Part shown: positions 19,828 through 60,762 of the stretch, piece by piece
How positions within the stretch are numbered: position 1 is the first letter of the stretch
Layout of the letters: each line of letters begins with the position of its first letter
Notes under the pieces: model-generated
Told to the model about the DNA's origin: nothing
Database searches by the model: none
Seen by the model: only the letters and a program-made list of their open reading frames with translations
Assembly: GCF_900107195.1 (NCBI RefSeq)
Contig: NZ_FNPB01000001.1
Span: 310,001 to 374,000, forward strand
Direction: 5' to 3'
From: Halobellus clavatus
GTDB taxonomy: Archaea; Halobacteriota; Halobacteria; Halobacteriales; Haloferacaceae
DNA: 64,000 nt
Translations under genes and position numbers: made by a program

Positions 19828-19870
19828 TCCGCGCACTGCCACGACGTGGCCCCCTCGCGTTCAGCCTGTT

Positions 19871-19906
19871 CCTACTATATTGGAATCACTACACAATACT
19901 AATAGG
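19871..19906. promoter_or_regulatory. Imperfect inverted repeat overlapping the TATA region of the sulfur operon
   Basis: The left arm CCTACTATATTG (19871-19882) and right arm CAATACTAATAGG (19894-19906) are inverted repeats with one mismatch and one inserted base, 11 bp apart. The right arm contains the only TATA-like sequence (ACTAATAG), about 27 bp before ATG 19929. A dimeric repressor bound here would block TFB/TBP, so this is a candidate operator for the TusA-SQR-DUF1641 operon. Confidence 0.4.
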
Positions 19907-19928: not shown

Positions 19929-20171
19929 ATGAGCGACACTGCACTCGAAGCTGACGAGACAGTCGACGCACGAGGCGCGACCTGTCCCGGTCCGCTGATG
20001 GACCTCATCGGCGCCGTCCGCGGAGCGGAGACAGGGACCGTGATCCGGCTGTTGAGCGACAACGACCAGTCGCTCACCGACGTCCCGGCCTGGGCGGACG
20101 AGTCCGGAAACGACGTGCTCACGACCGAAGAGACCGACGACTACTACGAGATCTACGTGGAGACGGCGTGA
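19929..20171 (+). CDS. TusA-family sulfurtransferase
   Basis: An 80-residue two-layer alpha/beta protein with the TusA signature ATCPGPLMDL: reactive Cys19 in the CPxP motif. TusA proteins carry persulfide sulfur between donors and acceptors, for tRNA thiolation or sulfur oxidation. Here it is followed, 6 bp on, by an SQR-like flavoprotein, which favours a role in sulfide/persulfide handling over tRNA thiolation (inference from context). A TATA-like element 27 bp upstream suggests a leaderless start. Confidence 0.9.
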   Translation: MSDTALEADETVDARGATCPGPLMDLIGAVRGAETGTVIRLLSDNDQSLTDVPAWADESGNDVLTTEETDDYYEIYVETA

Positions 20172-20177
20172 TGCACG

Positions 20178-21320
20178 ATGACTGAACACATCGCCATCGT
20201 CGGGGGCGGGACCGGCGGGACCGTACTCGCCAACGACCTCGCCGACCGCCTCGGCACCGAGCTCGACGCGGGTGACGTGCGCGTCACCCTCATCAACGAC
20301 GATCCGGATCACGTCTACAAACCGGTGTGGCTGTACGTCCCGTTTGGACAGCGCGAGCTCGCCGACGGACGGCGGCCCCTCGCGGAGTTGGTCGACGACG
20401 CCGTCGACCTCCGGATCGACCGCGTGACCGATATCGACACCGACGCACAGGAACTCCAGTACCGCGAGGGCGAGAGCGAGGCCTACGACCACCTCGTCCT
20501 CGCGACGGGATCGACGCTCGCGCCCGATGAGATCCCCGGGCTCAACGACGCTGGTCACGACTACTACAGCGAGTCGGGCGCGACGGCGCTCCGGGAGGAA
20601 CTGCTCTCGTTCACCGAGGGGCGGATCGTCCTGAGCGTCATCGGGACGCCGCATATGTGCCCGGCCGCGCCGCTGGAGTTCGTGTTTATGCTCGACGACT
20701 GGTTCCGCGAGCGGGGCCTCCGCGAGGACGTCGACATCACGTACACCTACCCGATCCAGCGGGTCCACGGCAACCCGCACATCGCGGAGTGGGCGCGGCC
20801 GCTGATGGACGAGCGCGGCATCGAGGTGGAGACGTTCTTCAACGCCGACGCGGTCGATCCCGACGCACAGACCCTCTCGTCGATGGAGGGGACCGACCTC
20901 GAGTACGACCTCCTCGTGTCGATCCCGCCGCACCGCGGCGTCGATCTGATCGCGGAGGCCGGCCTCGGCGACAAGGGATGGGTCGACGTCGACAGGCACA
21001 CGCTCGAAGCCACGGGCGCACAGAACGTCTACGCGCTCGGCGACACCGCCGACACGGGCGTCCCCAACGCGGGGAGCGTCGCGCACTACCAGGCCGGCGT
21101 CGTCGGCCAGCGACTCGCCAGCGAGGTCCACGGTCGCCCCGCGACGGCGACGTACGACGGCAAGACGCTCTGCTTCATCGAGACGGGGATGGACAGCGCC
21201 TCGTTCGTGGAGTTCGACTACGAGAACCCGCCGTCGCCGGCCCCGCCGTCCCAGAAACTCCACTGGTCGAAACTCGGCTACAACGAAGCCTACTGGCTCA
21301 CCGCACGGGGGTTGTTGTAG
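20178..21320 (+). CDS. Sulfide:quinone oxidoreductase-like FAD protein
   Basis: A 380-residue flavoprotein of the SQR/NDH-2 group. The FAD Rossmann loop is IVGGGTGGTVLAND (residues 7-20); VLATGST (108-114) and NVYALGDTAD are the second and third FAD/NAD contacts. Cys162 (PHMCPAAPLE) matches one redox cysteine of SQR and Cys332 (TLCFIETG) another; canonical bacterial SQR has a third, which I do not see. It probably oxidises sulfide to persulfide, passing electrons to menaquinone. The neighbours TusA and DUF1641 are on the same strand with 6-bp and 0-bp gaps. Confidence 0.85.
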   Translation: MTEHIAIVGGGTGGTVLANDLADRLGTELDAGDVRVTLINDDPDHVYKPVWLYVPFGQRELADGRRPLAELVDDAVDLRIDRVTDIDTDAQELQYREGESEAYDHLVLATGSTLAPDEIPGLNDAGHDYYSESGATALREELLSFTEGRIVLSVIGTPHMCPAAPLEFVFMLDDWFRERGLREDVDITYTYPIQRVHGNPHIAEWARPLMDERGIEVETFFNADAVDPDAQTLSSMEGTDLEYDLLVSIPPHRGVDLIAEAGLGDKGWVDVDRHTLEATGAQNVYALGDTADTGVPNAGSVAHYQAGVVGQRLASEVHGRPATATYDGKTLCFIETGMDSASFVEFDYENPPSPAPPSQKLHWSKLGYNEAYWLTARGLL

Positions 21321-60061: not shown

Positions 60062-60263
60062 TGTCATCCGTGTGGATGCTTGCCACAGTTATGAACCTTG
60101 TGCCGACTGGGCGCTGAATCGGACCGAGCACAGTATCCGGCCGCCTGTGGCCGACCGCCGAGTCGTCTGCTGCGTCGCATCACTGACACTCGTGTTTTGT
60201 CGGGTGGTTCGGTCATTTTTATCGCTCTCGTGGACTTATCGTGTTACTTTCTCTGTGATTGGG

Positions 60264-60304
60264 AATCGAATCAAGGAATATACGGATACTCATTTGATTC
60301 GATT
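60264..60304. promoter_or_regulatory. 11-bp perfect inverted repeat bracketing the TATA box of the PNPOx-like gene
   Basis: AATCGAATCAA (60264-60274) and TTGATTCGATT (60294-60304) are exact inverted repeats separated by 19 bp. The spacer contains the TATA box GAATATAC (60276-60283), about 28 bp before ATG 60307, and the right arm ends two bases before that ATG. Arm centres are 30 bp apart, close to three helical turns. A regulator bound to both arms would enclose the promoter core; this is a strong operator candidate. Confidence 0.7.
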
Positions 60305-60306
60305 GT

Positions 60307-60762
60307 ATGTCCACACCGCACGAAACGCTGCAGGGCAAGCAGCTGACGGAGACCGAGATCGACCAGTTCCTCGAGAGTCAAGGGTTCGGCGTGCTCTCGC
60401 TCGCAGCCGAAGGCGTCCCCTACGCCCTCCCGATGTCGTTCGGGTACGACGGCAGCGACCGGCTGTACTTCGTGTTCGTGGGATACTCCGAAGAGTGGAA
60501 GAAGGTGACGTACGCCGACTCGACGACCGTTGCGGGCTTTCTGACGTTCGACGTCGAATCTGCGGAGACCTGGCGGAGCGTGATCGCAGCGGGCCCATTC
60601 GAGCGTATCGACTACGAAGAGTGGGACGCCGCGCGGGAAGCGATGGCCGACAACGCGTTTCGCCCTGACCTCCTGGTCGGCGACGTCGACATCCAGGAGA
60701 ACCCGCAGGTCTGGGTCCTCGACGCCGAGGAGAAATCGGGGCGGGCGATCGGGACGGAGTAG
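60307..60762 (+). CDS. Pyridoxamine 5'-phosphate oxidase-family flavin-binding protein
   Basis: A 151-residue split-barrel protein: LTETEIDQFLESQGFGVLSL, then VPYALPMSFGYDGSDRLYFVF (strand pair that binds FMN in the family) and GFLTFDVESAETWRSVIAAG. This is the 'general stress/flavin-nucleotide-binding' branch; no PLP-specific residues are evident. It probably binds FMN, F420 or heme; the reaction is unknown. The start ATG 60307 is leaderless by its TATA box, which lies inside an inverted repeat. Confidence 0.85.
   Translation: MSTPHETLQGKQLTETEIDQFLESQGFGVLSLAAEGVPYALPMSFGYDGSDRLYFVFVGYSEEWKKVTYADSTTVAGFLTFDVESAETWRSVIAAGPFERIDYEEWDAAREAMADNAFRPDLLVGDVDIQENPQVWVLDAEEKSGRAIGTE

Follow-up and report, generated by a model that had tools for sequence, protein, structure and literature searches.

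In archaea, a regulator that binds upstream of BRE/TATA is usually an activator, and one that binds over the TATA box or the start is usually a repressor (PMC4158304, PMC10570040). The TGM sites of TrmB/Tgr in Thermococcales, TATCAC-N5-GTGATA, lie upstream of BRE/TATA when activating and downstream when repressing (PMC4158304). The EnfR operator of the codh cluster of Thermococcus onnurineus is a 36-bp pseudo-palindrome over a TATA-like sequence (PMC10570040). In haloarchaea, CGAAA, with the core CGAA, has been put forward as the BRE (PMC4983044), and the denitrification motif CGAAYATDKTYG is tied to NarO-type regulation (PMC10062603).

The promoter analysed here lies in a 64,000-nt stretch of the Halobellus clavatus genome (the window) and contains a perfect inverted repeat and an overlapping dyad. 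Like the EnfR operator, the repeat spans the TATA box and stands close before the start codon. The EnfR footprint runs from −44 to +3 relative to the start and is centred at −21, and the repeat here runs from −43 to −3 with its centre at −23. This architecture, which the original prediction had called unusual, thus has a precedent. However, the EnfR site is imperfect and has a proven repressor, whereas here perfect 11-bp arms form a candidate site in a haloarchaeon, read from sequence. The match is one of layout alone, and we would not class the repeat with the EnfR-type operators. The dyad resembles the TGM sites in its symmetry and 5-bp spacer, but the sequences are unrelated and TGM serves sugar metabolism in another order. 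The published CGAAYATDKTYG motif is likewise a short dyad in haloarchaeal promoters and precedes low-oxygen genes (nirK, nor, nosZ; PMC10062603), but its half-site and spacing differ. By reading of the sequence, CGAAYATDKTYG is absent from the window promoter (60200-60310); CGAAT and ATTCG do occur in the arms of the repeat, but with 25 bp between them.

Promoter of the PNPOx-like gene

The gene at 60307-60762 (+) encodes a 151-aa PNPOx-like protein, assigned to PF12900 (Pyridox_ox_2) by Pfam (E 6.1e-19) and by its orthologues. Judged from the N-termini of the orthologues, which align there, and from an in-frame stop just upstream, ATG 60307 is the right start codon. The TATA box AATATAC (60277-60283, +) and a BRE-like CGAA (60267-60270, +) were read from the sequence, and orthologues have TATA regions at the same distance. 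Because of the TATA spacing, the transcript is predicted to be leaderless, probably starting at or near ATG 60307. The ORF upstream of the gene in the window is small and divergent. Downstream, both the window's own genome (G000) and its sister species (G079) carry tRNA-Ser(GGA), a gene for a 67-aa membrane protein and an ilvA-like gene.

Inverted repeat around the TATA box

The left arm AATCGAATCAA (60264-60274, +) and the right arm TTGATTCGATT (60294-60304, +) are complementary at 11/11 positions and enclose the TATA box with a 19-nt spacer. The right arm covers the predicted start region and ends 2 nt before ATG 60307. The first 3 bases of the left arm are the right edge of the dyad described below, and the next 4 are the CGAA. 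The perfect 11-bp repeat with its 19-bp spacer had been predicted originally, and its coordinates, as well as the positions of TATA box and ATG, were all confirmed. The same prediction placed both arms on one DNA face. The distance of 30 bp between arm centres stands; at 10.5 bp/turn it amounts to 2.86 turns, which puts both arms on the same side of the helix only approximately.

Over all 64 kb of the window, exact inverted repeats this long are nothing unusual: 6 of at least 11 bp with a gap of 3-40 were observed against 4.2 expected. The window has 67% GC and the promoter segment 41% GC. Within the 107-bp promoter segment, a repeat of this kind has p ~1.5e-4 as judged from shuffled copies; scaled over ~60 promoters, which is an estimate, the chance is roughly 1%. 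Exact copies of the arm in the 3.75-Mb genome number two, which are the pair itself, so the many unrelated copies that would have spoken against the predicted element were not found.

Two readings of the arms were considered very improbable. The first takes the repeat for an RNA hairpin or a terminator. The RNA of the copy in the window does fold better than shuffles (z −2.9 on the + strand, −5.1 on the − strand), but the G079 copy does not (z −0.02). With a leaderless start, moreover, the transcript would include no more than the final bases of the right arm, and since the upstream ORF of the window is divergent, no RNA runs up to the repeat to be terminated by it. The earlier suggestion that the right arm acts as RNA is weak in view of the G079 fold and of the leaderless start predicted from TATA spacing. 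The second reading, just as remote, takes the arms as inverted BREs on either side of the TATA box, forming a bidirectional promoter. Each arm carries CGAA on its own strand and a small divergent ORF lies upstream, but the repeat and the TATA box have centres ~4 bp apart, and in G079 the upstream gene runs in the same direction. The right arm is 10 bp from the TATA box and the left arm 2 bp, a spacing that does not suit a promoter in reverse.

To find a regulon of similar arm pairs, we made pattern searches with relaxed pairs across the genus and with AATCGA-N28-30-TCGATT across 170 genomes. Such a regulon was rejected: there was about one match per genome or fewer, in GC-rich genomes. Many of the loci read in context lay inside long ORFs, and the strict-pattern matches in two genus members (G005, G104) look like coding sequence. 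For AATCGA/TCGATT the reversed pattern does not serve as a fair control, given how frequent TCGA is in these genomes. The scan of genome contigs returned no close orthologue. One G079 match precedes a TrpD2-like gene with the same layout; G000 has there a 9-bp repeat with shorter spacing, and the G079 layout was seen in no other genus member read. As a second case this arm pair would be unproven.

Upstream of the TrpD2-like gene (L084/L172 in G079, L175 in G000), AATCGA stands before and TCGATT after the TATA region with different spacings (29 and 18 bp), which was not seen in other genus members read. At L092 of G000 (C15:101120 and 101382), two palindromes ATTCCGA-N5-TCGGAAT/A lie ~260 bp apart, one of them 65 nt before an IclR-like gene, and G079 has a single similar site (C1:1547056).

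The repeat in orthologous promoters

The comparison comprised 28 orthologous promoters. One was that of the window, and the remaining 27 came from the family and order, at ~50-62% protein identity. The orthologue of G079 has 62% identity, and in the protein tree G000 and G079 form a sister pair (support 99/91). The G079 promoter reads AATCGAATTATGCTATTTATTAGGTGATGTTCAATACGATT, then 2 nt, then ATG, with arms that keep the G000 register relative to TATA and ATG. Between the two species the left arm is identical at 9/11 and the right arm at 8/11 positions. This makes 17/22 for the arms versus 6/19 for the spacer; the rest of −100 to −1 has 26/76 (Fisher p 0.0004, arms versus rest). The G079 repeat is paired at 10/11 positions once shifted outward by 2 (p 0.0025, shuffles). 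The other 26 of the 28 promoters have a TATA region and no repeat of this geometry above chance, with a weak exception in L073 (8/11). On this comparison the repeat is lineage-specific and not a family feature, being found only in G000 and G079. Conservation of the arms holds for one sister, in the same register and with a diverged spacer; an operator of the whole family is not borne out, and orthologues with a TATA box but no arms are what the original prediction had named as speaking against it. The arms rest on two species only.

The repeat may not be an element at all, a reading that we regard as a serious contender though somewhat below an even chance. The left arm would be the edge of the dyad followed by the BRE and conserved on their account, and the AT-rich right arm would match it by chance; the right arms of the two sisters would resemble each other since sequence near a leaderless start changes slowly. 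This agrees with the lack of arms in 26 of 28 orthologous promoters and with the frequency of repeats this long in the window at large. The GAAYCGAA junction also occurs at another gene that lacks a shared repeat. The longer form GAAYCGAAC recurs before the TATA box in TrpD2-like promoters of several genus members. In the TrpD2-like promoter, G000 and G079 keep 11/11 and 7/11 of the corresponding positions and yet have no repeat in common, so that a repeat does not follow from these positions being conserved. Against a chance match stand the perfect 11/11 pairing, at p ~1.5e-4 per promoter, the same register in the sister species and the diverged spacer. Because of these three points we kept the reading of the repeat as a functional, lineage-specific second operator at an evenly balanced chance.

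A conserved dyad upstream of the TATA box

As many as 21 of the 28 orthologous promoters, across the order, have in common a dyad, RTTC[CT][GC]A-N5-TG[GA]GAAY, which starts ~58-60 bp before the ATG with the TATA region in between. The window copy TTTCTCTGTGATTGGGAAT (60248-60266, +; 19 bp) starts at −59. Its left half is degenerate, with 2 mismatches to the consensus, and that of the G079 copy is more so. The original prediction missed this dyad, whose right edge overlaps the left arm of the repeat. A weight matrix was made from 19 of the 21 promoters, leaving out G000 and G079. With this matrix, the two strands of 60248-60266 rank 3rd and 4th of 127,964, which makes it the second-best place in the 64 kb, and only 16 window positions score as high as the dyad copy of G079. 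The best place in the window is GTTCCTACTATATTGGAAT (19868-19886, +), 42 nt before a TusA gene (19929-20171), which is followed by an SQR-like ORF (20178-21320; sulfide:quinone oxidoreductase, named by reading) and a further ORF.

A further reading, in line with the original prediction of a factor bound to both arms, would make the repeat the principal operator, served by a regulator of its own encoded nearby and acting without the dyad. The arms occur nowhere else in the genome, which would suit a regulon of one gene, but most orthologues keep the dyad and have no repeat, and no DNA-binding protein gene is evident beside the PNPOx-like gene in the window or in G079. We consider this reading unlikely.

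Distribution of the dyad among genomes

Matches to the strict form GTTCYCA-N5-TGRGAAC numbered 85 (a sum over the per-genome table) in 49 of 146 genomes, and its reversed pattern gave 0. Looser searches in seven genomes gave 7-21 forward versus 0-2 control matches. Distances from site to start cluster at 38-49 nt, and some are longer. The genes shortly after the sites, named by reading where there was no Pfam match, encode a NirK-like multicopper oxidase, a plastocyanin/halocyanin-like protein, DoxX/DoxD, a universal stress protein, DUF302 and HTH_20 proteins, as well as two HTH_10 regulators with the DmsR N-terminal domain. The dyad also precedes a siroheme decarboxylase-like gene that is divergent from the TrpD2-like enzyme gene. 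In G000 and G079 the genes after it encode, among others, a chlorite-dismutase-family protein, an SCO1-like protein (by reading, in both species) and a cysteine-synthase-like protein. From these neighbours, the dyad seems to mark genes of heme, copper/nitrite, respiration, stress and low-oxygen functions. We did not find the motif reported in the literature searched, which was mostly outside the subscription journals.

In loci L112-L141 and L090-L111, across the order, GTTC[CT]CA-N5-TG[AG]GAAC sites stand at about 1501. Copies of the published CGAAYATDKTYG motif lie beside the dyad in L117, L118 and L129, where, near 1501-1545, CGAACATGTTCG or CGAACATATTCG is found within ~10 bp after it.

Discussion

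With the sequences, the conservation pattern, the unique arms and the recurrence of the dyad as observations, we favour, by a little more than an even chance, a composite archaeal promoter. The conserved dyad would govern the gene as an upstream activator-type operator, and the repeat that encloses the TATA box would be a younger second layer. From its position, an activator dimer at the dyad probably helps to recruit TFB/TBP, and the other targets of the dyad suggest low oxygen, heme or respiratory stress as the signal. The left arm may have grown out of the edge of the dyad's right half-site and the BRE-like CGAA, with the right arm placed over the start region. A protein on the repeat, if there is one, would most likely be a dimer or two dimers; it would exclude TBP/TFB or polymerase and repress the gene. 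Any proteins named for the dyad or the repeat are candidates.

More tentatively, and with less than an even chance, the dyad may define a hitherto undescribed, order-wide haloarchaeal regulon for heme, copper/nitrite and low-oxygen respiration. Its activator site would be near-fixed in distance from leaderless starts, and one lineage would have gained a TATA-enclosing operator, as promoter rewiring in progress. The putative dyad regulon is more interesting than the repeat. Few haloarchaeal regulators have a known operator, and the near-fixed geometry and coherent targets, including DmsR-like regulators that might bind the dyad, would offer a route to a low-oxygen/heme regulon. The repeat would be a modest example, open to testing, of a promoter that has gained a second site over its TATA box.
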